Assembly (NCBI RefSeq): GCF_030680395.1
Contig: NZ_JAUXVR010000044.1
Span: 186,001 to 250,000, forward strand
DNA: 64,000 nt
Source of the DNA: Methylobacter sp.
GTDB taxonomy: Bacteria; Pseudomonadota; Gammaproteobacteria; Methylococcales; Methylomonadaceae
Direction: 5' to 3'
The notes beneath the pieces are model-generated. The model searched no databases. It was not told the origin of the DNA and saw only the letters and a program-made list of their open reading frames with translations. Each line of letters starts with the position of its first letter. Within the stretch, counting starts at the first letter, position 1. Both the position numbers and the translations under genes were made by a program. Positions 36,564 through 64,000 of the stretch are shown piece by piece.

Positions 36564-38555
36564 TTATTTCTTATCTAAGCCAATGAAGCCTAATGCCTGC
36601 CGCCATTTCTTATCTCTTCGTATCGTGTCAAGCCTGATTTTACGGGCATAATGCTCAGCTTTAGTCTGCGCATAAAGAACCAGTAAGCGGAAAAGATTTT
36701 CTTGTATGAACCTGGTATTTGGCAATATTGATCTTGCCGCTGCCCGCGTGATTAACGGCGCATATCTGATAAATAACTCATCTTCCAAACTGACAATGGC
36801 TTCGACAGTCCCCGGATCGCCTTGACGGGCTGCACGGCCGAATAATTGCCTGTCCACTCGCGCACTTTCATGAAACTCGGTCAATATAACGTGCAGCCCT
36901 CCTGTTTCAGCCACTTCATCCGATAGCTTGATGTCGGTGCCCCGACCCGCCATATTCGTGGCTACCGTTACCTTGCCCGGTAAACCTGCCTGTGCGACCG
37001 CTTCCGCTTCAATATCGTCTTGGCGCGCATTCAGCACGGTATGCACAAGCCCCATGTCGGCAAGGAGCCGGCCCAGATATTCAGACCCTTCTACGGAACG
37101 CGTGCCAACTAACACGGCCCTTCCCATTGCCGCCAATTCGGCCGTGCGAACGGCTACATGCTGCCATCGCGCTTCCGAAGTCAAAAACACCCGATCCGGC
37201 AATCTTTTTCGACGGCTGGCTTTGTGCGTCGGAACCTTTGCCACCGAAATATCGTAAAACCGCTTCAACTCAGGTTCGACTTCTTTAGCAGTTCCCGTCA
37301 TGCCTGAAAGGAGCAGATAGCGTCCAAAAAATCGCTGATAGGTAATTTGTGACAAGGTTTTTCGTTGCCCGCTTATTTCGCAATTTTCCTTAACCTCAAT
37401 CATCTGATGCAGCCCCCGCTCCCAAGTCCTGTCAGGCATCGCGCGGCCGGTGAACTCATCGACAATCTGCACTTTGTTTTCTGCAACGATGTAGTGTTGA
37501 TCCCGTTGAAACAAATATAGGGCCGACAGGGCTTTTTGTATCAGTTCATGACGCCATAAGGTCGATTTCCATAAGCCATCCAAATCCTCAGTAAGGCTCT
37601 TGAGCGTTTGATTGCCTGTCGCGGTTAGCCAAATATCCCGGTCCTTGCTCTGCACAAAATCCACATTGGCTTTTAATTGCTGCGCCACGGTAATGGCTTG
37701 GTCATAAACCTTCTCGTCAATATCATCGGGTACCGTTTCCGAAATAATCAGCGGTGTGCGCGCCTCATCAATCAGAACGCTATCGGCCTCGTCGACAATG
37801 GCCACATGTAAACCGCTTAATATTAATGCGGGCGCAGAACGGTTATTCTCCAATCGGCGAAGTTTAAGATGGGAATGCAACACTCCGCCTGCCGCGATTC
37901 GATCCTTTAAGTAATCAAAGGTCAGTTCTTTATTTGAAACGTAGACAATATTATTGGCGTATTGCTCGCGGCGCATGTCCAGAGCGGTATCCTGAATCAC
38001 TACACCGAGGGAAAAGCCGAAAAAAGAAAACAGCGGCTCATTTTTTTCGGCATCGCGTTCGGCCAGATAATCGTTGACGGTAACAACATGCACTGAAGCG
38101 CCCGTGGCGGCGGCAGTACATATCGCTAAGGTAGCGGCAAGCGTTTTGCCCTCCCCTGTGGACATTTCGGCAATCTTTCCCTGTAACAGAAAACGCCCGG
38201 CCATCAACTGAACATCATGATGGCGCATGCCCAGTATGCGTCTTGATGCTTCGCGTATAACTGCAAAGGCGATCACCAGCAGATCATCGCGAAAGCCTTT
38301 TTTTTGCAGTTCCCGACCAACTGTAGACAACTCGGCGCGCAAACCGTCGTCTTGATGCTTCCAAATGGAAGACTCCAGCGCATTAACTTTTTGTACAAAA
38401 CGTTTGGCTTTAGCGGTGCCGCTCGAAGAGAAGTGGGCCATGAACCCGCGCAAGCGCTCTTCAAGCTCGGATTCATGCAAGTCGACCCGTTCGACGTAGC
38501 AGCCATCGCTAACCTCTATGGTGCGCCCGGCAATCAGCGCTCGAATATCAGACAC
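36564..38555 (-). CDS. Short SecA-like ATPase of the giant-protein export cluster
   Basis: 663 residues with the DEAD-type motor of SecA: QLMAGRFLLQGKIAEMSTGEGKT (Walker A, residues 131-138), VHVVTVNDYLAERDAE, the DEAD box VAIVDEADSVLIDEARTPLI (residues 255-258), FGRYLLLSGMTGTA, VTVATNMAGRGTDIKL and FGRAARQGDPGTVEAI. Housekeeping SecA is about 900 residues. This one ends soon after the second nucleotide-binding fold, lacking most of the helical scaffold/wing region and the C-terminal zinc/SecB-binding tail. It also reads GRAARQGDPG where SecA has GRSGRQGDPG. It overlaps the M50-HlyD gene by 8 bp and is last in the cluster. I infer that it powers export of the giant protein; housekeeping secA should lie elsewhere in the genome. 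Confidence 0.85.
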   Translation of the reverse strand: MSDIRALIAGRTIEVSDGCYVERVDLHESELEERLRGFMAHFSSSGTAKAKRFVQKVNALESSIWKHQDDGLRAELSTVGRELQKKGFRDDLLVIAFAVIREASRRILGMRHHDVQLMAGRFLLQGKIAEMSTGEGKTLAATLAICTAAATGASVHVVTVNDYLAERDAEKNEPLFSFFGFSLGVVIQDTALDMRREQYANNIVYVSNKELTFDYLKDRIAAGGVLHSHLKLRRLENNRSAPALILSGLHVAIVDEADSVLIDEARTPLIISETVPDDIDEKVYDQAITVAQQLKANVDFVQSKDRDIWLTATGNQTLKSLTEDLDGLWKSTLWRHELIQKALSALYLFQRDQHYIVAENKVQIVDEFTGRAMPDRTWERGLHQMIEVKENCEISGQRKTLSQITYQRFFGRYLLLSGMTGTAKEVEPELKRFYDISVAKVPTHKASRRKRLPDRVFLTSEARWQHVAVRTAELAAMGRAVLVGTRSVEGSEYLGRLLADMGLVHTVLNARQDDIEAEAVAQAGLPGKVTVATNMAGRGTDIKLSDEVAETGGLHVILTEFHESARVDRQLFGRAARQGDPGTVEAIVSLEDELFIRYAPLITRAAARSILPNTRFIQENLFRLLVLYAQTKAEHYARKIRLDTIRRDKKWRQALGFIGLDKK

Positions 38556-40695
38556 CGAAGCGACTCAGGAATAATTGCCGCAAACGGCGTAAGCCCTGCC
38601 AGGCTAAAGGCTCATTGCCATGATCGAAGCGAACGTGTACGCGCTCTCCAAACGTTACCGTTGAAACAGTCTCCGGCAGTGCAATATCTACGATAAAAAC
38701 GCGCTCGACCGTCTTCAATCCGTCCGGATCGTCGGGGACGGTGGCGATGGTTCCGCCGCCGCTTAACGATAAGGCCGCAGATGGCAGTTCGTTTATCCCG
38801 CCTGCGGATTCCCTGGCTAAGTTAACGTGGTGGCTTTGAGCGATCCAATTCGATAGCCGCAGTTCTATCGACGCCAGCCGCGAGCGCACCAAATCTATAT
38901 CGTCTTGGAGAACAACCACGCGCGTCAATAAAGCATCGCGTTCCAATACATAGCCGATCAGGTCGCCTTTTTTGAAATATTTGCAGGGCATATCTTGCGG
39001 CTGCGCAGCGACAAACACACCCTCGGTATTGGCATAACCGATCAGATTTTCAGCACGTTTCTCCATCTGAGTCCGCTTCTCCTGCTCGCCTTGCAATTGC
39101 CGAAACAAAACCGCAGCCTTTGTCGGTTCAGTAAATTGTTCCGCGTTATATTTTGCCTCGGTTTCTTTAACTTTGGCTGTTGCGACGGCAAGCTCGGTGA
39201 ATAGCAAATCATCCTCTAAGACATACAGCGGCGTTGATTTCTTGACCCTTACGCCGGGAGAAACCAACCAGCGGCGAAAAAAACCGTTGCCCCCGGCACG
39301 TAAAATGGACTGATCAGGCAACCAGACGACTCCCTCGGCGCTGGTATAAAGCGGCATCGGCAGGACAAAGCCCAACAATCCTATACTGGTCAGCATAGTC
39401 AGCGAGACCACTAATGACGCCTTACGCCGTCGTCTCAAATTGGCTGAGCCTGTCACATGCTTATAAGCCGCCCATAAGGGTATTGCGATCAGTTTAAAAC
39501 CGCCCCATAGCGCCAGTAGAACGCCGAAAATAAAAAACTTGTCGGCAATAAATAGAATGACAGACACCGTCACGAAAGTACGATACAGCCATGCCAGCGG
39601 TGTATAACAAAGCAGCCAAAGCCGTTCCGATTGGGTCTCATGCGAAGGGGCGAAATCATGCGCACCAAAGACATGCTTATCCCAAAAGTAGGTCAGGTAC
39701 TTTTGCCCGCGCTGGGCGAGATTGGGAATTTCAACCAGGTCGGTAAAAATATAATAGCCGTCGTAGCGCAGTAACGGATTGCCGTTTACCACCAGCGAAG
39801 AAACGCCGGCAACCACCATCACGTTAAACGCCATCGCACGAACAATGCCCGGCTCAATCGACAGCCAAACATACAGTGCCAGCGCAGCAAGAAAAAGTTC
39901 GACCAGCATGCCTGCCGCCGCCACGATGGCGCGTTTGTATTTTGAAGGGAACGCCGCCGACGCAGAAGCATCCACATAGGGTACGGGCGCAAAGACAAGA
40001 AACATCAGTCCCATTTCATGCACTGCACCGCCCCATACTTTAACCGCGAAAGCGTGTCCCAACTCATGCAGCAACTTAACGACCGGAAAAACCAGAACCA
40101 TCACCATCAGGTTGCTTGATGACAGCACGTTATCCGATAAATTGTTGGTCAACTCCGGCCAATGCTGCGCCGCCAGAAACATCGCAGGAAACACCACTGC
40201 CAGCCACAGCAAAGCGCCCGCCGGGCTAAAAAGCCAGGCCAAGCTCGGCACCCAGCGCGACAGGAAATTATCGGGATCGACCAATGGCAGCTTAAGGCTC
40301 ATCGGGTTAAGGAACCACTGCTTCAAGATAGCAATGCGTTTTTTGTTATACCGCTGAAACAGCGCTACCGAATCCGGCACAGAATCGACTTGCAACAGGT
40401 CGGCCGCATGCATTTGCACCAATAAATCGACAACCTCGTTTTGGGTGCAGGCATCTCCTTCGCCTCCGGTATTAGCAAGTTCCCACAGCGTCTGAACCGA
40501 CTTTGCGCCATCCATTCCCTTTACCAGCGCATAAGCTCTCGGAGAAAGCCTGTGATACCGTCCGCCGGTCTGGTCCTGCATCACATACCAAACCTGGCCG
40601 CGATACACATGGCGATGCACGCGCGCTTGCGGAGCCAGGCGCGGTTTTAACTCGGCAACGCTGTGCCATGAAGAACTGAAAATACTGCGAGTCAT
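38548..40695 (-). CDS. PqqD-like / M50 site-2 metalloprotease / HlyD-like fusion protein
   Basis: 715 residues, three parts. Residues about 18-105 have a PqqD-like fold pattern (WYVMQDQTGGRYHRLSPRAYAL, then MDGAKSVQTLWEL), similar to RiPP recognition elements that bind leader peptides. Residues about 150-440 are a polytopic M50 zinc protease: HELGH at 210-214 and the third ligand motif NGNPLLRYDGYY at 304-315. Residues about 450-715 are a periplasmic membrane-fusion-like region: lipoyl-type half-motifs (GVRVKKSTPLYVLEDD), a coiled-coil span (ELAVATAKVKETEAKYN to NLIGYANTEG), and a beta-barrel-like end (GERVHVRFDHGNEPL). Known relatives are annotated as peptide zinc metalloproteases. It overlaps the SecA-like gene by 8 bp. 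All catalytic ligands are kept, so it is probably an active intramembrane protease or a protease-derived gate. Confidence 0.85.
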   Translation of the reverse strand: MTRSIFSSSWHSVAELKPRLAPQARVHRHVYRGQVWYVMQDQTGGRYHRLSPRAYALVKGMDGAKSVQTLWELANTGGEGDACTQNEVVDLLVQMHAADLLQVDSVPDSVALFQRYNKKRIAILKQWFLNPMSLKLPLVDPDNFLSRWVPSLAWLFSPAGALLWLAVVFPAMFLAAQHWPELTNNLSDNVLSSSNLMVMVLVFPVVKLLHELGHAFAVKVWGGAVHEMGLMFLVFAPVPYVDASASAAFPSKYKRAIVAAAGMLVELFLAALALYVWLSIEPGIVRAMAFNVMVVAGVSSLVVNGNPLLRYDGYYIFTDLVEIPNLAQRGQKYLTYFWDKHVFGAHDFAPSHETQSERLWLLCYTPLAWLYRTFVTVSVILFIADKFFIFGVLLALWGGFKLIAIPLWAAYKHVTGSANLRRRRKASLVVSLTMLTSIGLLGFVLPMPLYTSAEGVVWLPDQSILRAGGNGFFRRWLVSPGVRVKKSTPLYVLEDDLLFTELAVATAKVKETEAKYNAEQFTEPTKAAVLFRQLQGEQEKRTQMEKRAENLIGYANTEGVFVAAQPQDMPCKYFKKGDLIGYVLERDALLTRVVVLQDDIDLVRSRLASIELRLSNWIAQSHHVNLARESAGGINELPSAALSLSGGGTIATVPDDPDGLKTVERVFIVDIALPETVSTVTFGERVHVRFDHGNEPLAWQGLRRLRQLFLSRFGV

Positions 40696-40724
40696 TGACA
40701 GCTCTTCATCTGGAAAAACTGCAC

Positions 40725-40853
40725 TTTGTCCACGAAAGACACGAACATATTCATAGAGATTCCAGACTGTAGACCATCACTCTTTGGAAAATGGCTAAAT
40801 TAAACACAACACATCGATTTATTTATTACTGTTCGTGCTTTTCGTGGACAAAA
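40725..40853. repeat. Inverted-repeat element (GTCCACGAAAG...CTTTTCGTGGAC), copy B
   Basis: TTTGTCCACGAAAGACACGAAC (40725-40746) is mirrored by GTTCGTGCTTTTCGTGGACAAA (40831-40852) with two mismatches, around an 84-bp AT-rich interior. Its arms resemble those of the element at 20355-20589 (shared TTCGTGCT.TTCGTG). It sits inside the cluster between the GAF-HlyD stop and the M50-HlyD start, and is non-coding. Confidence 0.65.
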
Positions 40854-40858
40854 TAATT

Positions 40859-42739
40859 TCATGGTATCCAAGTCCACAATGTCAGCGTTAACCAATCGGT
40901 AAAGCTGTGAATCAACACCCACCACAATGAATGCCGATCCGTAACAACCTTTCCTATGCCTTCCATACCTGGACGAAGCCGCGTAGACGCATCGGAAAGA
41001 CTCGCCTCGACTCTGAAGAAATTTTTTCCATCCTCCGCCGTTGCGACGGGCGTCACTTTTTGCACCGTCAACGCTTGCGGATCACCTGCTATGCCGGTAA
41101 TGACCAGCATTCCCATCTGCCCTATTTTTATATGACGTATTTCTCTCTCATCTATTTGCAAAATGACCCGGTAACTTTGCAACGGCGCAATCTCAAATAA
41201 TTTTTTACCCACCTCAACCGGCGCTCCAACTTGCTGACTTAAATCGCCGGATACAACCAATCCGTCAAAAGGAGCGACCAAATGCGCATACTCAATCTTT
41301 TTAGTCACCAGATTTAGTTCAGCTTCAGCTTGATTCAACTGGGCTCCCAGTACCTGCACCTCCGCCAAATCATGAGTGGCCATAGCCTCGCGCAGACGGT
41401 TATCGTACTGATCGCGCTCGCTCGACCAGCGCGCCTTCTCGATCATCAGCTCATGATCATCTAAAGCCGCCAGCAATTGCCCTTGCTTGACCGTATCGCC
41501 TGCACGGACATAGGCCGCGCCGACAAAGCCATCGAATGGAGCCGATACGACGCGTTGTATTTCTCCTTCAATGACAGTTTTTGCAGTCACCCGGTAATCG
41601 ATATGCACCAGCAATAAAATCGCCAACAATATAACCAATGATGCCGCTGCCGCTTTCCATATCAAATAACGCGGCCCAAACAGCTTTGCCAGTATCGATT
41701 TGGCGCCATCAGCCAGACGCACCCAGCCATTTTGTTCCGCCTTTTTTCGCTGCGAAATAATCGGGGCGGCCATCGCAGTAAAAGCATCCAGCCAAACCAA
41801 GTTTGCATTGTCAAAAGCCTTGCCGGACGACTCTAATACAAGCACACCCATGCTGCGCCCGCCCTCAAAAAGCGGACAGGAAATAACCGACCTGGAACCG
41901 GATATTTGCATCAGCTCGCGATGCACTGGGAAATGATTATTCTCTGAGCTCTTATTGATCAGTTCCATCTTGCCGTGATCGTAAGCCTCTTCCATGGCGC
42001 GCATATAAGCTTTGGCAAGCGACGTATTTTTCTCGAAGGTTGCAGCTTCCGATAGCGCAGCCAACTTGACGTTATCGTTGTTTACCAAGCCTATCGCAAC
42101 CCTTGCGCAATTAAGACGCTGCCGCAGTTCGTTGACCATTTCGAATAAGACTTGCTGTAATTGTCCATGACGCAAAACAACCGCAATGACTTCCAATACC
42201 GAACCGGCATGAGCCTTGGCAGTTATTGCATCTTCCAGCTCCCGCCCGGTAAGCAAGCTCGACAGCCAGGCGCTGGCCCAATGAATGTCACGAAATATCT
42301 TATTGACATCACCATCATCGCACGCGGCTTCAACGGCAACAATCGCACTCACGCGCTGCTCTAAAAGAATTGGGTAAGCAATCTGGGTTAAATGAGCCAA
42401 ATCAGGCTGATCAGGTGCATCTTCAACTTGTTGCGGTGAAGCGGTCGACTGAACAACACCGCGCCGGTCCCGCAAGCAAACCTCGACTATTTTTGCCAGT
42501 CGGCCCATGCTTGGACTTGCTTTGGGCCAAACGGCCATCGGCACATAAATTTGCATTTCCTGGTTTTCAACCAATACCGCTGCCGCGCTTGCGCCTGGAA
42601 TTTGTTCGCATATCAAAGCAAGCCAGGCTTGGCATAATTCATTTGATGTATTTGCATTAACAAAAGCATCCCAAGGCGATGCACCGATTAAGGCCTGATC
42701 TTCTTGAGCCAAATCATTATCTTGTGTGTGTTGATTCAC
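40859..42739 (-). CDS. GAF-GAF-HlyD membrane-fusion (adaptor) protein
   Basis: 626 residues. The N-terminal about 340 residues are cytoplasmic and look like two tandem GAF domains (about 25-165 and 185-335: CQAWLALICEQIPGASAAAV, and VLFEMVNELRQRLNCARVAIGL with SVISCPLFEGGRSMGVLVLES). One membrane helix follows (about 359-380, WKAAAASLVILLAILLLV). The periplasmic part is HlyD-like: a lipoyl half-motif VVSAPFDGFVGAAYVRAGDTVKQGQLLAALDD, a hairpin coiled coil, the second half-motif YAHLVAPFDGLVVSGDLSQQVGAPVEVGK and a beta-barrel. HlyD adaptors bridge inner-membrane pumps and TolC. GAF domains bind small ligands, so this adaptor may respond to a cytoplasmic signal. Its ATG overlaps the TolC gene's end by 4 bp (ATGA). 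Confidence 0.85.
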   Translation of the reverse strand: MNQHTQDNDLAQEDQALIGASPWDAFVNANTSNELCQAWLALICEQIPGASAAAVLVENQEMQIYVPMAVWPKASPSMGRLAKIVEVCLRDRRGVVQSTASPQQVEDAPDQPDLAHLTQIAYPILLEQRVSAIVAVEAACDDGDVNKIFRDIHWASAWLSSLLTGRELEDAITAKAHAGSVLEVIAVVLRHGQLQQVLFEMVNELRQRLNCARVAIGLVNNDNVKLAALSEAATFEKNTSLAKAYMRAMEEAYDHGKMELINKSSENNHFPVHRELMQISGSRSVISCPLFEGGRSMGVLVLESSGKAFDNANLVWLDAFTAMAAPIISQRKKAEQNGWVRLADGAKSILAKLFGPRYLIWKAAAASLVILLAILLLVHIDYRVTAKTVIEGEIQRVVSAPFDGFVGAAYVRAGDTVKQGQLLAALDDHELMIEKARWSSERDQYDNRLREAMATHDLAEVQVLGAQLNQAEAELNLVTKKIEYAHLVAPFDGLVVSGDLSQQVGAPVEVGKKLFEIAPLQSYRVILQIDEREIRHIKIGQMGMLVITGIAGDPQALTVQKVTPVATAEDGKNFFRVEASLSDASTRLRPGMEGIGKVVTDRHSLWWVLIHSFTDWLTLTLWTWIP

Positions 42740-44184
42740 TCGACAAGCTCCGTAAGAACTTTATCCGTTGCATCTGTCGGCATGTCCACAAAAAGGGAAT
42801 CTAAAGCCGCAATATCTTCATTTAGCAAAACACCCATAATCGATTTTAACTTCACAAAGTTAACGACCTGGTCATAACGGCTTTTACTGTAATCGCGTTG
42901 CGCTTCAGATAGCTTCTGCTGCGCTTCCAGGACGGCTGTTTCAAACTTCAAGCCATTGTGGCTGGCAACTGTCGCCGCTAGTAAAGCTGAGTTTGCGGCC
43001 TTGATTGCCTGCCCGGCGGCACGGGCTTTTGAGTAGGCGGAATACCAGCCATACCACGCCTGCTTGGCAGATAAAATCGATAGATTTCGTGCCGCATCAA
43101 TATCGAAACGGGCTTTCTCTTTTTGCGCAACGGCCTCATCAACCTTGGCTGACTGAGTACCGCCGGAATAAATAGGCATATTGAGCTGCAAGCCAACGGT
43201 TCCCAGCATAATGTCGTACCCTGCCTGTCCTGGAAAACCGCCGACTGCCTGGCTATTTTTGCCATAGCTGGCGACCAAATCCAGAGTAGGCTGGTGCCCT
43301 GCCTGCTGCTTGCGAACCTCATGCGAAGCGGATTCATGAGCTTGTATAGCTGCCAATATATTGTGATTTCCAGCCTCCACACTTTCTAACACAGCTTTGA
43401 GCTTTTCACCGCTCAAGTCGGCAAGCTCGGCATCCGTCCGCATGAATGTAGGAGTCAATTGGTCGACATTACCGATGATTTGCTCCAATTCCGCACGCTT
43501 AAGATTTAAATCCGTTTCGGCAGATACTTGTTCAGCCATGGCTTGACCCAGTTTTGCCTTGGCCTCCTCAAGCTCCGGCCGACCAATATAATTAAGCTCA
43601 AAGCCGCGTTTCGTCTCTTCCCATCGGTGCTGGGCAACAGCAATCTGGCGCTGAGTAAACACCACCTGATCCCGAGCGGCCAACAAATCAAGCCACACGG
43701 AAACGACCTTTGCCAAAAGCTCCTGCTCGGTATTCGCCAATTGCTGCTCTGCCTGAAAGGCCGCAGTTTCAGCTTGCTGCAAGCCGATATAACTTGGACG
43801 TTTCCAGATCGGCTGCGTAAGGGTTATTTGTTCAGAATCGCTATCATATTGATCCTGCGCAGGCGGTACTTCTGAGCTACGGGTAAGATACTTCCGCTTG
43901 TTGAAATTAACATTGGCAGTCACATTGATTTGCGGCAGCAAACCGCCGAATGCCTGGTCTGTTCGCGCTCTGGCAGCCTGTACGGCGGCCTTGGCGCTCA
44001 GATAGGCAGGTTCATTAATTCTTGCCATGTCTAATAGGTAAGATAGAGTCTCCGCATGCGCTATGTTGCATAAAAAAGGGCTAATCACCAGCATCAGTCG
44101 CCAATGGCGAAGCTTATTGAAAAAGGTGGCTGGTTTTATTATCAAAATTATTTTTTGAAGGCTTAATACACTGCTTATGGACAT
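42736..44184 (-). CDS. TolC-family outer-membrane channel protein
   Basis: 482 residues. A long positively charged start precedes the hydrophobic signal segment (LMLVISPFLCNIAHA, cleavage about residue 44). The true start may therefore be a later Met such as M31, but ATG 44184 is kept since all are in frame. The mature part has the duplicated long-helix architecture of TolC: LSYLLDMARINEPAYLSAKAA, then ARTDQAFGGLLPQINVTANV, and in the second half HQPTLDLVASYG, GTVGLQLNMPIYSGGT and YRDYSKSRYDQVVNFVKLK-type segments. It forms an outer-membrane trimer with a periplasmic tunnel. It is the first gene after the cargo region and is coupled to the GAF-HlyD adaptor. Confidence 0.92.
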   Translation of the reverse strand: MSISSVLSLQKIILIIKPATFFNKLRHWRLMLVISPFLCNIAHAETLSYLLDMARINEPAYLSAKAAVQAARARTDQAFGGLLPQINVTANVNFNKRKYLTRSSEVPPAQDQYDSDSEQITLTQPIWKRPSYIGLQQAETAAFQAEQQLANTEQELLAKVVSVWLDLLAARDQVVFTQRQIAVAQHRWEETKRGFELNYIGRPELEEAKAKLGQAMAEQVSAETDLNLKRAELEQIIGNVDQLTPTFMRTDAELADLSGEKLKAVLESVEAGNHNILAAIQAHESASHEVRKQQAGHQPTLDLVASYGKNSQAVGGFPGQAGYDIMLGTVGLQLNMPIYSGGTQSAKVDEAVAQKEKARFDIDAARNLSILSAKQAWYGWYSAYSKARAAGQAIKAANSALLAATVASHNGLKFETAVLEAQQKLSEAQRDYSKSRYDQVVNFVKLKSIMGVLLNEDIAALDSLFVDMPTDATDKVLTELVE

Positions 44185-44242
44185 GCAAAACTCTTGATTG
44201 GATTTGTAGCTAGCGGCACGGCTACTTGCTTTAACGTCCTAT

Positions 44243-45477
44243 TCATTGGTTGCTGGTAGTCAGGAATTCGTCGTTCAGGTACGGGAGAAAGTCGATGTAC
44301 CGGCCGTGGCCTGAGGCGTCAGTGCCGAGAGTCATGGCCGCATCGGCGCCCTCGCCTTGGGTCTCACCGACGGCTGCGCTTAGAAGATTGCTAAATATAA
44401 CGTTAAAACTGGCGGAATCGGGCTTAAACTTTTTATCAAGCATTTTGGTAGTCATGGCACTACTAGATTTCGTAGTACTGGAAGGAATGGTCCACTGCTC
44501 TTGTGGACAATATTTTTTATATATTTCCTCGAACTTTCCTGAAAATATATCGGCATCTATCACATTGATAAATTCCTCCACCTTTACTATGTGACCGTCG
44601 ATATTCACCAAGAACACAGCTTTATCTTTACCCGTATATCCCTCGTTTGGCATATACTTATATCCGCCTTTAGCAGTCATTGCGCCATAGTGGGGCTGCT
44701 GTACAACCTCAATCTTAGCCGCTTCGATAGCGGTCTGCATATCTGCACTATCACTCGCTTCCGGGAACAGCTGACCTGCAGCGGCTTCAGGATAAAGCGG
44801 CATATCATCTAAAAAAGATGAATAATTAGTTTTTTGTTTCAACCGTTCAAAAATTGGCGAAATCGTGCAAACCCCGACCGCTCCATACAGCGGCTCCGAT
44901 GGAGATTTGGCGGGATTAGTCTGAGCAACGGTAACAATAACCGGCACTTCTTGCTGTGGTGTAACGAACATGTCCATGATCAACATATCAAATCCTTCAG
45001 GCTGGATATCAAATTCGACTTGCAATTGCTCCTGCAATGTTCGATTGGATTCCGAAACAATAGCCCCGCCACCAAATTACTTGGGATAGCAGACACAATT
45101 TCCTGTAATTTTGGCTTGTTTAGATTAATGCCAAACTGGGTATTGTAGTTCTTGTTATTTTGAGACGAAATGCCGAGCGATTTCAATATCCAGCCCATAT
45201 TGCCATAGGTATTCTGGTCATAAATGACTTTACTAACGTTTTCCCATAGAGTTTTTCTGTTTTGGAAGTCTTGTGCTGACGGAGCACCTTGATCCCCTGC
45301 ATGAGCTTCCCGGAAATTCAGTGCATCTGCTGCGACTCCAGAAAGTAGGTTACCATGACTATCATAAACCGTCGTCCTATCGACCCTGGCATTTAAATCG
45401 TTCCAATCAGCCAAGTAGAATGTGCTGACGCAGGAAGCGCATCGCTCGCGACTGATACGTCTCATTCTTCGACTCAT
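44243..45477 (-). pseudogene. Frameshifted partial copy of an internal module of the giant protein
   Basis: Two overlapping frames on minus (from ATG 45477, then from about 45070) together align with the giant protein between its GH19-like and metalloprotease parts. Matching pieces are YNTQFGI vs YDAQFGI, VGVCTI vs IGVCEI, GGYKYMPNEGYTGKDKAVF vs QGYYYPDKGYYGNDSLIAQV, and AAVGETQGEGADAAMTL followed by DASGHGRYIDFLPYLND vs TAVGETKGSGANATITL followed by DADGHGWYIDYTPYLND. The copy stops at TSNQ, just before the catalytic HExxH helix in the parent. A one-base shift at about 45060-45085 separates the halves. It lies 8 bp past the giant gene's stop. Either it is a decayed tandem duplication or an indel hides a real 400-residue paralogue. 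Confidence 0.7.
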
Positions 45478-45485
45478 CACATTAC

Positions 45486-60400: not shown

Positions 60401-60848
60401 TCACGCTGCCTTTGTCGACAAAGGCATTGCTGATGTCGCCGATGTCCGGCGCTCGGTTGGCGTTGCCCACGACAATCGGCAGCACCAGTTGGCTGACGGC
60501 GGGCACGCCGGTGCCGTCGCCATCATCGGTCGCCGTTACTGTGATGCTGTATGTGCCCGCTTGGGCAAAACCCGGCGTCCAAAGTATTTCCAAGGTCTCA
60601 GGATCGAATGTCGCGCCGTCCGGCAAACCCGCTACCTGATAGCTGACGGTTGCCGCCGTGGTCTCAGGGCCGGTTGCCGTAGCACCTGCCTGAAAGCGGA
60701 TGCGCGGCTCAAAATCCGGGTTATCGGGATCGAATGCGAAAGCGCTGATTTGTAGCGACTGGCCTTCCAGGATATTCCAAGTTTCGGGCGCATCGAAGAC
60801 CGGCGCGCCGTTGGCGTTGAGAACGTTTAAGACCACGTCCTGGGTCAC
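45486..60848 (-). CDS. Giant multidomain cadherin/Ig-repeat surface or secreted protein (main part)
   Basis: 5,120 codons from GTG 60848, but that is not a true start: the reading continues from the frame upstream after one frameshift. Approximate order: Ig/He_PIG-like repeats (1-780); YD/RHS-like segment (GRISRVTGPDAQGE and YRYDAQGRLALV, about 1110-1170); dockerin-like pair (GDLNRDGNVDGADSEAWQQN and GDLNGDGQTNAADRQLLYAN, about 1275-1325); a beta-propeller-like region (about 2100-2450); a peptidoglycan-binding-like helix set (VEQRLKYLGY to DGKFDDNEQKALKLFE, about 2750-2790); a GH19/endolysin-like domain (RIAAFMSQARAETGG, WVGRGLVQLTHQPSY, about 3140-3436); a matrixin-type protease (LLHEYGHALGLEHSADAHNF, about 3830-3850); five cadherin-like repeats of about 93 residues; His/Asp-rich tracts; a last cadherin-like repeat; tail NKIDWAGQAPLL...LVVRAK. 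Dominated by Gly, Asp, Thr and Val with almost no Cys, as expected for a secreted protein. Confidence 0.85.
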   Translation of the reverse strand: MTQDVVLNVLNANGAPVFDAPETWNILEGQSLQISAFAFDPDNPDFEPRIRFQAGATATGPETTAATVSYQVAGLPDGATFDPETLEILWTPGFAQAGTYSITVTATDDGDGTGVPAVSQLVLPIVVGNANRAPDIGDISNAFVDKGSVIEIPVSVVDADGNPIQVSILGLPRFATYTQNPSNNGTASGVISFAPGANDRGDYTITVVAQDNGDPLRLDSGQASTGSGQTANNSVLTQAKSFVLTVRSETEAPVITAPRQVVAVAGQPLSVALLANDMDQDALTWSANGLPVGAEIQEAIQYGHAALIWTPTVDDIGSRDIELVVTDSGLAPENAGYVQPENPVPNVTKHTVRVVVRAANAAPEMLGVQVNGSQVTDTGATAPIQLNASEGVPLTIELFGRDTDADLIDWATTGLPRGMILDVPSASNGNLAVLRWTPDTFAAQDSNTGTAGQWRFTVRGSDGAAQFERSFEVNVANVNQTPRLLPMPLQLVNEGQTVNFTLRSFDADNDAISMSLVYDSTTPSGVVFDSATGYFEWTPDQNVVNSAIENDHPYSFTFQATDGNATTTQTVQVRVFDTNRLPQLTATNHALVIGQTLSLPVELGAAANPNGISATDPDGAEQTAALVVSFANLPEGASYDAQTRRLNWVPGPGQIGDFTVTAKVSDGKNITARTFTLRVVAEASANQPKITVSTTPSTPALPGQTVIASVRADAWSGIAGIVTEVRGSGLGAADTWQTVALDSAGRMKLLPTQPGLIEVRVTATDRDGFVSSQTHTVRVKNPADTAAPLLAWTDKLSGATAATKPVEISQITALKAGLVEQQLMGYKLQIAPAGSDAWQTLAEHDDAAVSIDRQLDLISIAPSKFANGVYQLRLSAWDLVGRTTEIEAHIIIDTAQKDLSTLTVTDNSYQLAGHTLAFNRNIDTTANNQQTGDLGNWQLALLDTQLTTDQPTTTDSGATASWQEGARVWLQIPENLSEATAKMLSLSFTLSTNSERLGQDPNAPQVFHPEFSDSQGWQLQAHTSVADNAKENLMRQGSHLYDQTTGLPWVPSSYTLIAPDGSRYELDAQGKISAVTFQDGAQWLVSDAGIAAVTGDVTQRVEIQRDSQGRISRVTGPDAQGETVSTVYRYDAQGRLALVRNLNSNDLGTPLAYDSQGKLFTDTITAKFGAAVNWLGDSSANQWTGELVQNGTALAFNVRDSELASTVHSPGAQGAIVYALETELPADANIEVTGATLIGNATVNGKNTLLVRVTEAGAKLIRINGAGAASVRISVAGDLNRDGNVDGADSEAWQQNALDSNPAGDLNGDGQTNAADRQLLYANYGFKANLAPTAVTDLPQGKTHTDLATKMSVSAIAEDIEGDSVFLRVINATHGSAKLSRDGSSLIFTPEAGYAGQATITLQADDGYALGAPIELNVNVSGAALTSIRITNLADLINMQTGQGTRIHAVGDFADEQDVDLTAGSGDYLTLNTLDLSPLGKVGAIAITIDDARDLVSAKAAGAGLISLSRSATDAQQQTYTIRTVAAINAAQPGQLDPQTGELTDTRASLTVTPDVYPGTLTLIPGSTRQLKVHVTDPNTGLNSDVHEASQTAFAGSPETIDEYVDLDTGEITTYIYAAIPAVFSGTRYIVSDDSIASVSDNGLITALRSGQVTVSIVHLGSVVDAYGTVSEQVIGQSDIKLSVQTAQTTDNDPATATPQTIAVNAHEGAAISAETGETVLIGAGALKQDTPVAISRIDLATIDPSTAIFAAQPGGLEAVGAFTLNVGSSTTAYPLQLAIPVQNGIAAQAGDEVWFLRKGKVLAEGSTATNLIYQDTWWVVDNGFISLDAGGNAIAKTASPPYGGLDASGEYMVYKKLPGVISSPFELTVGIGDSMTFAGSVGLTMSFGSTVLPIGITSNMIGIVATMATMGTASSYHFGVPQFADIVIPKVNEPPVINTSAKLPPVMTPYGNVVVPNITGAAANGAGTVTITVDNTNPGQLTGKIMLRALFANGIHIDVQELGGATSGVIRVETSKLETQDGKVFAVGSVSWQLVRIIPGFLPGVAPIEFAGNTARITPKADMAATLTRTGIEFFRENKTISVAQVNLVNKIGTGQAIDFKNKPNNSSVYLTGNKVQPIAFSTDLSRAYVAGTGVIYEIDLLTFQLIDSIPIQGGKNIVSLASVGSLLIVGEGQSYGNGAGNNQLYAMDTNPGSSTYKTFKSIQGTGIENSKLGVAGMTAGPDGQTLVVAMPQMSNTVSLSPNTTDRGNILILDFKTFNFKTGAIAPPIQASLPNDSLSGKTPQVITATRDENRYLVANVSDYNRGLSTLTLTRDADGKITGAKLEAIPLSQPTDKITIDRLDIQRAQSAVLVEQDGVEYAIVSDDNYHFLDPYWKAMYEAPSFVFTPSGPPLAVGGSASAKKVAVGGKLGIVKDPFGREGSPEYLGATLPLDGYGIVNLSLSEDGKVLIGQLKGTYSGNLLSEESLSQKPSQSHAWDVKALIAATLAQTDQDRLRKHISLIDTPNAEQSIANPGSEFRGTIGTAFDPEWINASVEGRMGDVIGVDLKELAARQLLVREGLLTEASAKLPFDKLNEEEYGLITTRMEELHDFSLDQQQLNLFTGRLAETPAMKLLTNNVNASGIPSILSRKSAYSSNALSTETADFTNSGVLFFVPNITDVKNLPSELSDIEKLRAGQTLADKFAGLIFYFKDRLQAANDPETGKGLVTITVKDYASTPNAFVGDRPLDNPGYLAFQLKGGVDTNAQNILDITRVEQRLKYLGYAATNSVSGKPEQEIKVGDGKFDDNEQKALKLFETVVRYTSAIGTGRDSNNIVEIQYRATVTGSGANNKTVKLEEVPGSFKLLSANNPTQAQIEAARAAARQNALRAAGYQSETDLNGIDGKIEADANNAQRKTTIDWLSAYNAPHWLQFFASLGTGYQTTNARLGVNSWMNLQTGGDKGGNVFGTSWVFDLMVASQQANHALNDAVVRPNSLLFAGTGPLGVALNLGINTAYISKTENGSGNQDRVNGKDVILGIIPDKNKDSELGSVPDKGAYKSQQWDLANAQYLAGLLRNPNIDNTNGSPGNSSGANQQDQALLDFLSVYSTTQKGENGGGWNNINIVNSDADTIRTALFGNGTQAGSVINNNQILIGGTAKTLGEEMTAESLAAFMGNMSGVDYQSWVEPLKLAMKEFKIDTPQRIAAFMSQARAETGGLSKLKEQLGPYRVGVILDKFISAFTYNGHENMHSATATITAREARFLNLKDFVKNTLHLSVLDGVSLSDPGVDAPLVNGVRVYSQSMSLATGATWNGVRDLFIDRIYSEDLGTGLVGNGKASDNTAHNWVGRGLVQLTHQPSYLQFADYIQRKHPELITSIGGKSIQDSILENPDLISQNTPNGHMLSALAGAWFWGNNDAKRDNGTSIGRTLNQQADLLQWSNPVSDAGTQDFRRVSRGITTDTESFRKRWDNYRNIPSAQNHISGIVPQATKGGNPYENIQAALKNLGFKSLSAERYDAQFGISLQKREIVPITRSPQPLNAATLESFNTTTVKTDTALSSVIQQLLTQATASLNLNPGDNVMVWFTEPPSAPNQPLITLVVAQVQDQTQITAQTETANQKKRIIGVCEIVNGAGELPEPKTEIYAEANAMHYMYDYEGKDLWFVTNPKTTIIEPPKHGHLEQGYYYPDKGYYGNDSLIAQVEENGVSVEVRFFIHVLEEYVSSSDEPYKWFCNADIPPGATNPWKISIAPIIVDTVSLTDGAYSFSLPEAFAGASPAVTFANLTGTAVGETKGSGANATITLDTDADGHGWYIDYTPYLNDSFLPTSNPNEWVAKAGSEAAGKMDMLSVLLHEYGHALGLEHSADAHNFMGTTLTPGTRRLPSADELTLMAQLVTEAKQNLAGLDGATVSVNGTNPTPSPIPTLPLGAGFGISFLGLTRRNNNSAGSLFGEGATANAPAQYDTAANPALVNGELNSLDGWTTTGNVAVNPSTGSGQAGGEAVLTETAGNQTRLNQVFVLGEHDRFLSFTLANATLGDQATGPDDAFEAALLDANTGLSLLGATGLTRNDAFLNRQANGEEHVASGITRIDNADGSRTYLVDLGGIAAGTTVNLSFDLIGFGQGSEASNSQITVRDLRLGVPQTADDSATLAEDTPAVIDALANDINALHPGFIPVIVNAPSHGQVTINLSNPELGQLGSFSYTPDKDWYGEDSFSYKLSDSRVDSNLATVTLTVTPVNDAPVAVDTALTLAEDATVTIDLLSLAVDVDSSALASAIVSGPAHGSLSQNTDGSWIYTPNANYNGADSFTYKVNDGELDSNLATVTLNIIPVNDAPTAGDQQLVTDEDTPITGNLLAVAADIDSTLLQGRIVAGPQHGQVNVAADGSFTYTPDANYNGADSFTYKVNDGELDSTIATVMLTIVPVNDAPVVSPIASTLLEDGRITLNLLGSTNDVDGDPLSVSVGTPQHGQLLKNADGIYTYVPQADYNGEDSFSYSVSDGQLDSGQALVRLTITAVNDAPVAQDDSVTLDEDNRIHLSIMANDYDVDGDSLNLIIVSQPAHGTLAVNADHTVSYTPLENWSGEDSFSYQLNDGELDSGIATVRLIVTAVADAPTLVLSEVGGASRELFRTGWESVGNRNTNSTLLEQRELEGWIAVARPGKNHGDHDDHDDHDDHDDHDSHEEHGSFEIWSSGDLMRDVQGRRRIVNAASGNGSNWLELNDAKGEGHETLGIERSIETIAGATYILSLDLAGHLGYGADSTRIGIYIDGIKIGSEDSTSPSTMLNWQTRTFQFIGKGGAQTLRIVSEATRRESNGRGMMIDNIALSETLPSNTGFEDAAVPLSVIGAALRDTDGSEILTLSIGAIPVGATLTDGVNSFTATLDNTTADVTGWNLGKLALMPPKDFNGQFALKVIATTTEQSNQSKATVEADLQVTVLPVNDAPLASNVSYTLTEGGGIVIDFAGLISDVDGDVLVLSFTNPKKGKLTKNVDSTYTYTPKHEFSGTETISYSVSDGKLITMASITLTVLPKNDDDEHHHDNGRHHGFKHSEHHGYPSYDDERSAKIIVQSVHPDYGQRHDDRKDAIIVNQYSGRMGNKIDWAGQAPLLGKLKKDDWVAEQLTEQPKEQSLAELTGLVVRAK
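46873..46925 (-). repeat. Short-period Asp-Asp-His tandem repeat in the giant gene
   Basis: A 9-bp unit (reading D-D-H on minus) is repeated about five times, giving a run such as HGDHDDHDDHDDHDDHD in the protein. Two neighbouring tracts are also His-rich (EEHG and, near 45735-45815, HHHDNGRHHGFKHSEHHG). They could bind divalent metal and, being tandem repeats, can expand or contract. Confidence 0.75.
47075..48480 (-). repeat. Five tandem cadherin-like repeats of about 280 bp
   Basis: Repeat starts (NDAP or equivalent) occur at about 48190, 47910, 47635, 47355 and 47075, a period near 280 bp (93 residues). The shared pattern is ...EDxxxxIxLL...DVDxxxL...IVxxPxHGxLxxNxDG..YTPxxNYNGxDSFxYxVxDGELDSxxATVxLxVxPVNDAP. 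This is the Ca2+-binding cadherin-like/Big_9-type repeat common in large bacterial adhesins. Neighbouring copies are close enough in DNA for recombination. Confidence 0.8.
48921..48938. repeat. REP-like element CCTGAGCCTGTCGAAGG inside coding sequence
   Basis: CCCTGAGCCTGTCGAAGG is read in frame on minus as PSTGSGQA within the giant protein, just before GGEAVLTETAG. It matches the core of a dispersed palindromic repeat (CCTTCGACAGGCTCAGG) that recurs at 60164-60205 and, more degenerate, at 62299-62323. Confidence 0.7.
60164..60205. repeat. Tandem REP-like half elements inside the giant gene
   Basis: GTCCTGAGCCTGTCGAG and GTCCTGAGTCCAATCGAAG stand in tandem, read on minus as DSGQASTGSGQT between NGDPLRL and ANNSVLTQ. 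The flanking repeat fold (VVAQDNGDP ... KSFVLTVRSE) is normal, so the element appears inserted without breaking the frame. Confidence 0.65.
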
Positions 60849-63800
60849 TGAGGTGATGACCGGACGCTGCCGGGCGTAGTCCAGGTTGCGGTCAAGGTGA
60901 CCGAGATACGGAAGGCGCCATGCTGGTTATAATCGGGCGTCCATTCCAGCCAGCCGGTCTCAGTGTTCAGTTTGGCCCCGCCGGGCAGCCACGGCGCGCT
61001 GTATTCCAGCGTCACGGTGGTGCCATCCGCCAGGGCTTCGCTGCCAGACACATGACCTGCCAATTGCAGGGCGTATCGTTCCCCTTCCCTCAGCGTTTGC
61101 TGTGCAACTGAGCCTAAAACAGGTTTGGCGTAACCTTGCTCTACGGTCAGGTTAAAATGTCGGCTGCTTGTTGTTATGCCGTCGCTGGCGACGACGGTGA
61201 TATTTTGGTAGACGCCCGCTTGATCGTAACCGGGCGTCCAGCTCAATATCCCGCTGGCTGCGTCAAACACGGCACCTGCAGGCAAGTTGCGGATAACCAG
61301 TGTCAGCGCATCGCCGTCCGCATCGGCTGCGATGATCGGCAAGCTCAGGGCTTCGCCCTCTTTCAGGGTAATATCCCTGACGACGTCAACCACGGGGGTG
61401 TTATTGCCGCCGATAACCGGCAGTTGGAACTTGCGTGTAGCGACCCCGCCGCGACTGTCCTGTACACGCACGATGATTTCGGTATCGGCTGCATCCAGTG
61501 CCGAAGGCGTCCAGTTCAGTGTCGCTACGGCATGATAGCCGTCATCTGCCGACAGAATTTCTGTTGGCGGAGTCAGCGTTACTCCGGCAGGCGCTTGCAC
61601 CAACTCCCAGTAAAATACTGTGCCGTCCGAGTCGATGGCCTCGATTTGTCCGGTCCAGGCTTGGCCTGCTGTAGCCGTATCCAAGGTATCGGCATCAATG
61701 AGACCGGCAACGCTTAATGACGGCGGTAAATTCTCCTGAGGCACGGCGTACACGCCATAACCCAGATTGAATTTGACCAAATCGGCCATGCCTGCGCGGG
61801 TGGCAAACAGGCTCGCAGGGATGACGGTGACAGTTTGATCTGCAATGGTGGCGCCGACGCTAAATGTTCCGCCGTTTGCCAATAAGGCAGCGCTAAGGTC
61901 AAGTATCCACAAATCCGATTGGTCGCCGCCGCCAATGCCTGCGCTATCGATCGAATCGCCGAAATAACGGCCCGGATCCAGCAATAAACTAAGCGGACCT
62001 TTAAGATCGTCGGTACCGATGTTGGTCAGGCTGACATCGTAGCTGATTTCGCCGGTCGCCCGGTCGGCGCGGGTGTTGCTGAACTCAAGCTGCACCTGGC
62101 TGGTCATATCCAGCAATGCGGTAAAGGTGCTGACATAGCCTTGCTCCAAGCGGATTTCGGCGCTGTTTTGCAGGGTGCTGCTGATATTGAGTTGGTACTG
62201 GCCTGCCGCCAATCCCTGCACATCAATCCAGGCGGTTCTTGTCGCGGCATCCCAACGGATATTTGGCGGAGTAATCGCAGCGCCCGCATTAGCGCCCAGT
62301 CCTGTACTGAGCGCAGTCGAAGTGGCGGTTAAGGTAAAGTTTGCCGGATTGAGCACGCTGGCAAGATCCGCCGTTTCCGTTCCGGGTTCGCCTGTCCACA
62401 TGTCCTGGTCGAAGACCACGCCAATCTGCGCCATCGGCAACGGAACCAACGCCCCATCGGGCACGGTGATCGCCTTGACGACCGGCGCTTTGCGCGGCGC
62501 AATCACATCGATATGCCCGGTTTGGGCAATCAGGATACGGCCGTCAGCGGTGGTAATGATGCTTTCGCCGCGGGTGCCGCCATCGGCCAGTTGCAGGACG
62601 CGCTTGCTGGCAAGTTCAACCATCCATACCGAAGCCTGATGCGGTACATTGGCTAATGTGGTTTGTCCATTAATCACCGAACGTTGTTGCAGGTTGCTGG
62701 AGGCTATCAGCAAGCCTTCCAGCGGTGTGCCATCGGCCCCAAACGTAATGCTGTCGATCACGCCGGACAAGCGGTATTCAAGTTCCGGGCGTCCCATAGT
62801 GCGGCCGCTCATTGGAAAGCTGATGATGTCGGTGGTGGGATTGGGCTGGGCGGAGGCCACTTCGCTGCCTGTCCAAGTCACCGCCCACAAGCGGCCATCC
62901 GGGCCGAACGCCAGATCGCCGACACGCTGGTTGCTGAAATGCTTCCAAGTTTTAGCCGCATCGGTTTCGCCGGGATGGAAAATTTCAATGCCGTTTCCCG
63001 ATGAAACGTAGATGTCTCCGGTCGTGGGCTGGATAGCCAGCGAGTGCGTCAACGGGTCCTGGCCGGGTCCGCTAAGGCGCTGCAATTCTTCGCCCGTGTT
63101 TGCATCGACCTGTAGCAATTGCGCGCCGGTCATCACCCATAATTGTCCGAGCTGATCAACGGCCATATCGAGGACCGGTGACTCCAGCGTAAACAATGGC
63201 GTCGTGCTTCTGCCTCCGTCTTTGCCGTAATGGAACACTTCATTACGCAGGCTTCCGGCGCTCGCAAGTATGCTGTGGTCGGCAAGTTCGACCATGGCTA
63301 ATGCGCCAATATCGGCTGCACTGGTTTGGTAGCCGTCGGCAAATCCGCGCAAGGTGAAAGGCGCCATCACTGAGCGCAAATCGGATTTTTGCACAGTCGC
63401 GACATGTCCGGGAAGCTGGCTGCCCGCTTGCTGGAACAGCGCGTTGGCCGCATAACTGCGGTCTGCGGCGGCTAGCGGGAACTCGGCGGTTTGGCTCAGG
63501 CTTTGATTCACGCCCAGCGAGTCGAGTATTTCCTGGCGGCTGCCGTCGTCGGGCAGCACGGCGTTGGTTAAGGAAGCCGTTTCACGGTTGCCCGATTTAT
63601 CGGTCGCCACGACCAAGAATTCGTAACGCTTGCCGGTCTCGCCGGTAAAAACAGCCTGGGTCCTGGAAGGATCGGCCTGACGCAGCCATATCTTGAAATC
63701 TCCGCCGTTTTCGGCGACATAAACGGTGACCGACTTGACGCCGCTATCGTCATCCGTTGCTGTCCAGCTTAAATCGTAACTGGGCGCACCTTGGGCGTCA

Positions 63801-64000
63801 TTGCCTTGGGAGGCCACGGTCAGCAGGGTGCTTGGGGCTTTGGCGTCCAGCGTAACCAGGCTCTTTGCGCTATCGATAGGCGGCGCCGCATCGACAAAAA
63901 TCCGCGCGGAAGAAATGATCTCGGCTTTTGACGGCGCGGTATCCGCTGCCCGCACGGTATAGCTGACAAAACCTTTCTTCAGTTGCTCGGCGTTGGCGAC
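60845..64000 (-). CDS. Giant protein, upstream part (N-terminus beyond right edge; same gene as 45486-60848)
   Basis: At least 1,050 codons, open through the right edge. GTG 63955 is simply an internal codon, with 15 more in-frame codons to the edge. Ig/FN3-like fold near the edge (DDDSGVKSVTVYVAENGG, YEFLVVATDKSGNRE). A six- or seven-bladed beta-propeller-like stretch follows (VLDMAVDQLGQLWVMTG, HSLAIQPTTGDIYVSSG, RVGDLAFGPDGRLWAVTW). Then come a Big_5-like domain (IGVVFDQDMWTGEPGTETAD) and three He_PIG/cadherin-type repeats (LPAGAVFDAASGILSWTPGYD; LNTETGWLEWTPDYNQHGAF). The stop at 60845 interrupts a repeat that continues at once in another frame. The next frame begins TSVTQDVVLNVLNANGAP, so one base seems lost near 60850-60905. 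Together the pieces give one protein of more than 6,150 residues. The N-terminal signal lies off the window. Confidence 0.82.
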   Translation of the reverse strand, partial: VANAEQLKKGFVSYTVRAADTAPSKAEIISSARIFVDAAPPIDSAKSLVTLDAKAPSTLLTVASQGNDAQGAPSYDLSWTATDDDSGVKSVTVYVAENGGDFKIWLRQADPSRTQAVFTGETGKRYEFLVVATDKSGNRETASLTNAVLPDDGSRQEILDSLGVNQSLSQTAEFPLAAADRSYAANALFQQAGSQLPGHVATVQKSDLRSVMAPFTLRGFADGYQTSAADIGALAMVELADHSILASAGSLRNEVFHYGKDGGRSTTPLFTLESPVLDMAVDQLGQLWVMTGAQLLQVDANTGEELQRLSGPGQDPLTHSLAIQPTTGDIYVSSGNGIEIFHPGETDAAKTWKHFSNQRVGDLAFGPDGRLWAVTWTGSEVASAQPNPTTDIISFPMSGRTMGRPELEYRLSGVIDSITFGADGTPLEGLLIASSNLQQRSVINGQTTLANVPHQASVWMVELASKRVLQLADGGTRGESIITTADGRILIAQTGHIDVIAPRKAPVVKAITVPDGALVPLPMAQIGVVFDQDMWTGEPGTETADLASVLNPANFTLTATSTALSTGLGANAGAAITPPNIRWDAATRTAWIDVQGLAAGQYQLNISSTLQNSAEIRLEQGYVSTFTALLDMTSQVQLEFSNTRADRATGEISYDVSLTNIGTDDLKGPLSLLLDPGRYFGDSIDSAGIGGGDQSDLWILDLSAALLANGGTFSVGATIADQTVTVIPASLFATRAGMADLVKFNLGYGVYAVPQENLPPSLSVAGLIDADTLDTATAGQAWTGQIEAIDSDGTVFYWELVQAPAGVTLTPPTEILSADDGYHAVATLNWTPSALDAADTEIIVRVQDSRGGVATRKFQLPVIGGNNTPVVDVVRDITLKEGEALSLPIIAADADGDALTLVIRNLPAGAVFDAASGILSWTPGYDQAGVYQNITVVASDGITTSSRHFNLTVEQGYAKPVLGSVAQQTLREGERYALQLAGHVSGSEALADGTTVTLEYSAPWLPGGAKLNTETGWLEWTPDYNQHGAFRISVTLTATWTTPGSVRSSPQ
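62299..62323. repeat. Degenerate REP-like element in the giant gene
   Basis: GTCCTGTACTGAGCGCAGTCGAAG is read on minus as STALSTGLGA. It is a weaker copy of the element at 48921 with the same CTGAGC...GTCGAAG frame. Confidence 0.5.

Follow-up and report, generated by a model that had tools for sequence, protein, structure and literature searches.

A conserved Methylobacter gene cluster as a probable leader-guided export system for giant LEPR-XLL repeat proteins

A window of 64,000 nucleotides from Methylobacter sp. (contig NZ_JAUXVR010000044.1 of assembly GCF_030680395.1, positions 186,001 to 250,000) holds a cluster of five gene families, all on the minus strand and transcribed in the order giant repeat protein, TolC-type outer-membrane channel, HlyD-type adaptor with GAF domains (GAF-HlyD), fusion of an M50 protease part with a HlyD-type adaptor (M50-HlyD) and SecA-like ATPase. 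We conclude that this cluster is probably a dedicated export system for giant repeat proteins of the LEPR-XLL class, guided by a leader at the N-terminus of the cargo. The LEPR leader would be recognized by a domain of M50-HlyD that has the fold of the recognition elements (RRE) of enzymes acting on ribosomally synthesized and post-translationally modified peptides (RiPPs), and the M50 part would clip the leader or gate its passage. The locus itself is already known, and the assignment of cargo, leader and receptor to it is new. For a conserved cluster this supplies the class of cargo together with candidates for the export signal and its receptor. At stake is the exit route of proteins whose open frames, which reach 19,427 codons, carry the leader motif. 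The components are listed below in window numbering, with contig numbering (C40) beyond the window.

36564..38555, minus strand: SecA-like ATPase, 663 amino acids (aa); Pfam PF07517, PF21090 and PF01043, no PF07516 or PF02810
38548..40695, minus strand: RRE-M50-HlyD fusion, 715 aa
40381..40650, minus strand: N-terminal RRE/PqqD-like domain of the M50-HlyD fusion, residues ~16-105
40054..40068, minus strand: HExxH zinc site in the M50 membrane domain of the fusion (H210, E211, H214)
38590..39360, minus strand: HlyD-type adaptor domain of the M50-HlyD fusion, residues ~446-702
40859..42739, minus strand: GAF-HlyD adaptor, 626 aa; Pfam GAF, HlyD_3 and HlyD_D23
42736..44184, minus strand: TolC-family outer-membrane channel, 482 aa; PF02321 at 166 bits
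45486..60848, minus strand: giant cargo, C-terminal open frame, 5,120 codons; Ig-like and cadherin-like repeats, dockerin-like and matrixin-like segments
60845..64000 and past the window end, minus strand: giant cargo, middle open frame, 3,128 codons in all
C40:256156-265659, beyond the window: giant cargo, N-terminal frame with LEPR leader, ~3,156 codons
C40:265670-266497, beyond the window: third HlyD-type adaptor, upstream of the giant gene, 276 aa

The giant is made up of three long frames in differing reading frames (~5,120, 3,128 and 3,156 codons), ~11,400 codons in total, and the frame switches at about 60.87 kb and again at about 70.2 kb; the frames were searched as separate pieces, the frame changes being neither mended nor read through. 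In G136, a sister genome from this genus, the stretch aligning to extended coordinates 52426-74749 lies within a single open frame, unbroken at both sites and 9,607 codons long or longer; the DNA of this genome is ~83% identical to that of the window across the giant and ~89% across the machinery. Since the frame of the sister genome is intact, unbroken copies of the giant exist, and the two frame changes are peculiar to this assembly or strain. The LEPR-XLL model (NF012209, LEPR-8K) matched residues 58-75 of the giant's first frame with 27.7 bits against a cut-off of 17, and CARDB, Ig-like and cadherin-like repeats with dockerin-like and matrixin-like segments make up the remainder. The giant's leader is short and basic and has the motif L-E-x-R-x-L-x-S, with S or A at position 8. 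No strong hydrophobic stretch was present in 24 cargo N-termini, a set that leaves out one spurious match, as judged by hydropathy (best 15-residue mean 0.57-1.47; no signal-peptide predictor used).

Occurrence of the cargo class was compared with that of M50-HlyD in an order sample of 201 genomes, the window's own included, and in a phylum sample of 299 genomes. Relatives of M50-HlyD were accepted at E<=1e-10, those at E<1e-100 being termed family I and the weaker ones, mostly at 1e-26 to 1e-40, family II; 47 of the 201 order genomes carried a relative, 22 genomes being family I. In the order sample, LEPR over cut-off and M50-HlyD occurred together in 29 genomes, LEPR alone in 4, M50-HlyD alone in 18 and neither in 150 (Fisher p 1.4e-18), and the corresponding numbers in the phylum sample were 54, 5, 31 and 209 (Fisher p 3e-31), both tests ignoring kinship. 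Put differently, M50-HlyD was found in 54/59 LEPR-positive genomes of the phylum sample versus 31/240 of the others. Within the window's genus, five genomes have M50-HlyD and six do not; LEPR exceeded its cut-off in 4 of the former and in 1 of the latter. Adjacency counts depend less on kinship than these per-genome tests: among 82 LEPR matches whose frames reach 300 codons or more, an entered M50-HlyD gene is on the same contig in 38 cases, and in 34 of those 38 it is within 15 kb. For the window's own pair the distance comes to 29 kb, an effect of the broken frame.

Conservation of the neighborhood was followed in 80 loci, the best 80 from a scan of named bacterial genomes, which were annotated by all-frame calling. 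According to their record titles, these loci come from Alpha-, Beta-, Gamma- and Deltaproteobacteria, Nitrospirota, Rokubacteria and Omnitrophota; among the last, 1 of 14 genomes was positive, namely the starting genome. A SecA-like gene was present in 77/80 loci (L113, one of the three in which it was missed, is truncated by the end of its contig), GAF-HlyD likewise in 77/80, the third HlyD in 60/80 and a crude ABC-exporter signature in 2/80. Because the grouping is conserved in these 80 loci, chance is excluded as its cause. The 22 family-I regions of the order sample were annotated by greedy gene calling, so that absences there are soft; the SecA-like gene adjoins M50-HlyD in 18 of them, and one of the four without it is cut by a contig end in a genome that carries a SecA-like gene on another contig. 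Frames of at least 800 codons start inside the 80 loci 106 times, and 40 are left when 66 shadowed by a longer frame or a machinery gene are removed. Ten of the 40, the giants, carry the leader motif (7 strict, 3 close variants); one of these lies in a locus that has no SecA-like gene, another beside a SecA-like protein lacking its motifs. The other 30 are without the motif, and most of them, by their starts, look like housekeeping genes or antisense frames; two smaller proteins in L116 (1,002 aa) and L117 (841 aa) are repeat-type or secreted-looking, and the repeat frame of L103 starts in masked sequence. The leader motif was also read in 14 giants of the order regions.

The candidate receptor is M50-HlyD. 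Its N-terminus has the winged-helix fold of RRE/PqqD leader-recognition domains together with sequence similarity to PqqD, and its catalytic motifs are intact, HExxH and N306-P307..D312 being invariant in 15/15 aligned members. The daptide-protease model covers the N-terminal and M50 span with 142.4 bits, below its cut-off of 300, and the Pfam M50 score is 22.2 bits, below the gathering threshold of 27.2. By sequence, a solved S2P matched the M50 part at E 0.44 only, and the full-model structure search hardly tested that part. In RiPP and peptide maturation, RRE domains bind leaders and M50 proteases cut them, and daptide proteases act in RiPP pathways.

Family II, the sister family, has an operon in L067 that comprises cargo, TolC, HlyD, GAF-HlyD and M50-HlyD with no SecA-like gene, and frames in L064 match it in sizes and order. 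No SecA relative was called in 9 of 10 family-II regions, soft absences all, and the tenth (L061) has a full-length SecA; four genomes with family II only (G115, G054, G131 and G011) have just a full-length SecA. Giants of this family start with leaders of the LEPRxLFDGAA type. Twenty leaders were read, 19 picked from 39 over-cut-off LEPR matches and one under cut-off. All 14 from family-II genomes or contigs have D at motif position 8, 12 of them on the contig of the family-II gene itself; the other six have S, five of them from family-I genomes and one (L170) from a genome with both families, where it is not assignable. When position 8 was left unrestricted, 21 family-I motifs gave 19 S, 2 A and 0 D, corresponding to 20 distinct leaders, as L038 and L098 look like the same contig. 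Both families occur in four genomes (G116, G156, G173 and G086), and there every leader is of the type that goes with the family next to it. M50-HlyD, not the SecA-like protein, is thus the common factor of LEPR giants, and leader recognition is therefore placed on it.

The SecA-like protein keeps the nucleotide-binding domains and the preprotein cross-linking domain of SecA and ends where the scaffold would start, aligning to residues 24-585 of the 783 of Bacillus subtilis SecA. The wing/scaffold (PF07516) and the C-terminal zinc motif (PF02810), both present in a full-length relative, are missing; a short tail (..LGFIG..) replaces them in the window's protein, and most members have a tail of the type D..L..LAFSGR.E. 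The same genome also encodes an ordinary SecA of 923 aa. Curated SecA2 models all scored under their cut-offs (493/930, 421.6/725, 519.3/1085 and 385.2/1100 bits). Among 96 SecA-like proteins, four cut by contig ends were set aside, and Walker A and DExD are kept in 87 of the 92 complete ones; 14 of these 87, one of them partly masked, missed the strict pattern of motif V or VI. SecA cut down to its core, with the ATPase motifs lost in a few lineages, bears on the need for SecA's scaffold and ATPase.

Part of this arrangement has been described. Kamneva, Poudel and Ward (2015; PMC4452313) reported a locus of SecA_DEAD, M50, GAF-HlyD and HlyD, sometimes with OEP, in which SecA has lost the wing-scaffold and no ABC transporter is present; in their proposal, SecA_DEAD and M50 take the ABC exporter's place, SecA as ATPase and M50 as a possible pore, and they called the broader role of the locus "completely unknown." In Methylorubrum (Methylobacterium) extorquens AM1 their locus is META1p2399-2402. 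The cluster analyzed here shares with it the SecA_DEAD protein without wing-scaffold, the co-encoded M50, GAF-HlyD and HlyD, and the lack of an ABC exporter. What sets it apart is that the portions of their paper at hand specify neither a cargo nor a leader and mention no RRE/PqqD domain, no sister family lacking SecA and no members with a dead ATPase; LEPR, PqqD, cadherin, giant and leader are words that its main text does not contain. A Vibrio paper mentions an LEPR-XLL protein of ~8,000 residues in passages in which the words SecA and HlyD are absent, and the passages of PMC10868602 and PMC9611531 on the LEPR-XLL class give no export route. No link between LEPR giants and the locus was found in the collection of open-licence papers searched.

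Among characterized systems, type I secretion (HlyB-HlyD-TolC, including that of giant RTX adhesins) has the same HlyD-type adaptors, TolC-type channel and huge repeat cargo, but the cluster is without an ABC exporter and its candidate signal is N-terminal rather than C-terminal. Accessory Sec (SecA2) likewise places a second, altered SecA alongside the housekeeping one, whereas the SecA-like protein here stops before the wing/scaffold, is coupled to HlyD and TolC parts and falls far under the SecA2 cut-offs. The PqqD/RRE-fold domain joined to M50, over the span covered by the daptide model, resembles RRE enzymes and the daptide M50 protease of RiPP pathways; here it is fused to a HlyD adaptor, and its neighbor is a giant protein, not a small peptide. 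With the LEPR-XLL (NF012209, LEPR-8K) giants the window's cargo shares an over-cut-off domain near the N-terminus.

For leader binding and cleavage, duct assembly, the identity of the channel and energy coupling we infer the following course. The giant would present its short basic N-terminal LEPR leader in place of a typical signal peptide. By analogy with the RREs of RiPP enzymes, the RRE at the N-terminus of M50-HlyD would bind this leader, and the membrane-embedded M50 part would cut or gate it. The duct out may consist of the C-terminal HlyD domain of M50-HlyD, the two other HlyD-type adaptors, one with GAF sensors, and TolC, while the SecA-derived ATPase would push or dock the cargo in place of an ABC exporter. 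The inner-membrane channel could be the M50 part, as proposed in PMC4452313, or SecYEG. A more specific version of this course is offered tentatively and with considerable doubt: bacteria might reuse the leader-recognition principle of RiPPs to export some of their largest proteins, in that the RRE-M50-HlyD receptor would read a leader code (LExRxLxS/A with the SecA-derived motor, LEPRxLFDGAA without a motor), clip the leader in the membrane and use M50 as the inner-membrane conduit to HlyD and TolC, giving a one-step route apart from both type I secretion and accessory Sec.

Several observations weigh against leader-guided export of this kind. Pfam gave no PqqD match to M50-HlyD at E<=0.001, and winged-helix domains of other proteins (GdmN, Rv2067c) tie in Z, at ~11, with the RRE fold. 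Evidence from sequence comparison for an RRE domain in family II is weak, at most suggestive: the family-I profile clearly matched the RRE region in 2 of 10 family-II members, and a profile-profile comparison of the two families (8 members) gave a collinear 75-column match at E 0.0013 and a probability of 18%, with E 0.2-0.7 for three control stretches. The SecA-like proteins of L110, L134, L136, L138 and L143 have no match to any of Walker A, DExD, motif V and motif VI; four of the five retain a recognizable tail, and all five are apparently ATPase-dead SecA paralogues kept in the export operon. Five of the seven genomes whose SecA-like gene is motif-less or absent hold another short SecA-like protein (661-703 aa; 43-49% identity to the window's), and two (G501 and G503) have only a full-length SecA besides. 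Since motif-less and SecA-less loci exist, local ATP hydrolysis by the SecA-like protein is not always needed. The per-genome association also has exceptions, apart from its neglect of kinship: LEPR is over cut-off without M50-HlyD in the order genomes G097, G105, G106 and G185 and in the phylum-sample genomes G203, G276, G389, G412 and G479, and the reverse is the case in 18 order and 31 phylum-sample genomes. Among 14 well-known control genomes, one had an over-cut-off LEPR match at a looser threshold, and none did at E<=0.02. Finally, a TolC neighbor was found with a narrow profile in 13/80 loci and 3/22 order regions.

The SecA-less and motif-less loci also bear on a different route, in which the giant crosses via SecYEG, driven by the housekeeping SecA or a SecA-like helper, the HlyD and TolC parts take a periplasmic intermediate out and M50 is a maturation protease. 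This is conceivable, though we consider it unlikely. The sister family without a SecA-like gene, with just full-length SecA in G115, G054, G131 and G011, and the retention in place of SecA-like proteins without ATPase motifs would fit it; the 24 cargo N-termini, with no strong hydrophobic stretch by hydropathy (no signal-peptide predictor was applied), and the keeping of a dedicated SecA paralogue in 77/80 loci would not. That adhesin genes and efflux-like parts were merely co-inherited on genomic islands, with no joint function, is very improbable: horizontal transfer of the locus was inferred in PMC4452313, but its content is conserved across several phyla, 34 of 38 same-contig pairs are close, and the two leader types track the two M50-HlyD families even within the four genomes that hold both.

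It is also improbable that the cluster modifies, cleaves or senses a giant whose export is left to an ABC type I system elsewhere in the genome. Peptide maturation is where RRE and M50 domains are best known, the daptide model matches the fusion below its cut-off, and ABC-type proteins exist in the genome, all below the HlyB cut-off. Against this stand the three HlyD adaptors and TolC inside the cluster and the results of the exporter search. No ABC exporter was present among 10 neighboring window genes scanned, and none of 57 ABC-type stretches matching HlyB in the whole genome was over cut-off, the best reaching 342 bits where 725.55 are required, in a search that used the HlyB model but not those of PrtD and LssB; these stretches include a small ABC ATPase (window 24773-25363). 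The idea that an ABC exporter close by handles the cargo was dropped on these grounds, and a crude ABC signature is confined to 2 of the 80 loci. The initial annotation of the window had noted the absence of an HlyB-type ATPase, in agreement with the lack of any HlyB match over cut-off in the genome, and the search for conserved co-occurrence that it recommended found the neighborhood kept in 80 loci. Its dedicated hybrid export route is well supported as far as an ABC-less export cluster goes, given this conservation and the LEPR co-occurrence, but feeding of the cargo by a SecA-like motor cannot be a general step: such a motor is missing from the sister family, and five loci have a motif-less one. 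Nor is the composition without a characterized counterpart, as had been stated, since Kamneva et al. (PMC4452313) described the locus and put forward an almost identical hybrid.

Within the window, the genes for the SecA-like protein and M50-HlyD overlap by 8 bp and those for GAF-HlyD and TolC by 4 bp, and M50-HlyD and GAF-HlyD are 163 bp apart. The same annotation had correctly listed five co-oriented families, a truncated SecA-like protein among them; its four overlapping or nearly overlapping genes amount to two overlapping pairs, and of its two HlyD-type adaptors both are present but the third lies beyond the window. Its single cargo of 6,150 residues was dropped in view of the frame changes near 60.87 and 70.2 kb: the giant exceeds 6,150 residues, as claimed, and is larger still, but is not one open frame in this assembly. 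The annotation had missed how large the cargo really is, the additional HlyD, and both the leader-recognition fold of M50-HlyD and the LEPR leader itself. HlyD-type adaptors and a TolC-type channel, both parts of type I secretion, are present in the cluster; the channel scored 208.6 bits with TIGR01844, below the cut-off of 225.15, and GAF-HlyD has a single strong hydrophobic segment by hydropathy, residues 360-378, between its GAF and HlyD parts. The ~1.3 kb between the giant and TolC hold a cargo-like remnant:

44243..45037, minus strand: remnant resembling a stretch of the giant protein; its residues 108-263 match giant residues 3649-3809 at 40% identity

Remnant frames span 44243-45567, this one being giant-like, and suggest a second or earlier cargo copy.

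Further features of the cargo were recorded. PF00413 (matrixin) matched the window giant in the piece 45486-53348 at residues 1312-1356, and the matrixin-type pattern HExGHxLGxxH occurs in giants of L070, L074, L116, L129, L139, L143 and L146, near the C-terminus in five of the seven. Such a segment could possibly serve self-release of the exported giant; as a general cargo trait the motif was dropped, since it is seen in 7 of the 54 loci that contain a long frame outside the machinery. By eye, the family-I giants of L036, L070, L076, L081 and the window have a common C-terminal pattern of (I/V)(D/N)W, then W, then an acidic-aromatic or acidic-leucine stretch, and one stretch of the window giant looks like a family-19 chitinase/lysozyme, for which Pfam gave no match at E<=0.001. 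The longest LEPR-bearing frame among the matches listed in the phylum sample has 19,427 codons (G261:C115:112865). A strong LEPR match in a 582-codon frame of the same genus (G106:C21:7377), whose genome has no M50-HlyD relative, is perhaps a decayed cargo left after loss of the machinery.

The sister family is represented in the window's genome by a HlyD/M50-HlyD pair near a contig end (G000:C2:4477-7994, L058). A full-length secA adjoins the family-II M50-HlyD gene in two genomes of the window's genus (L061 in G115, and G054:C9:146579-150630); a functional link was rejected and the position treated as chance placement, as it occurs in 2 of 10 genomes, both of that genus. The sister-family giants of L060, L064 and L067 have C-terminal ends of the form L..QL..FG......LLE.LAR.FA...DAA in common, a possible second signal.

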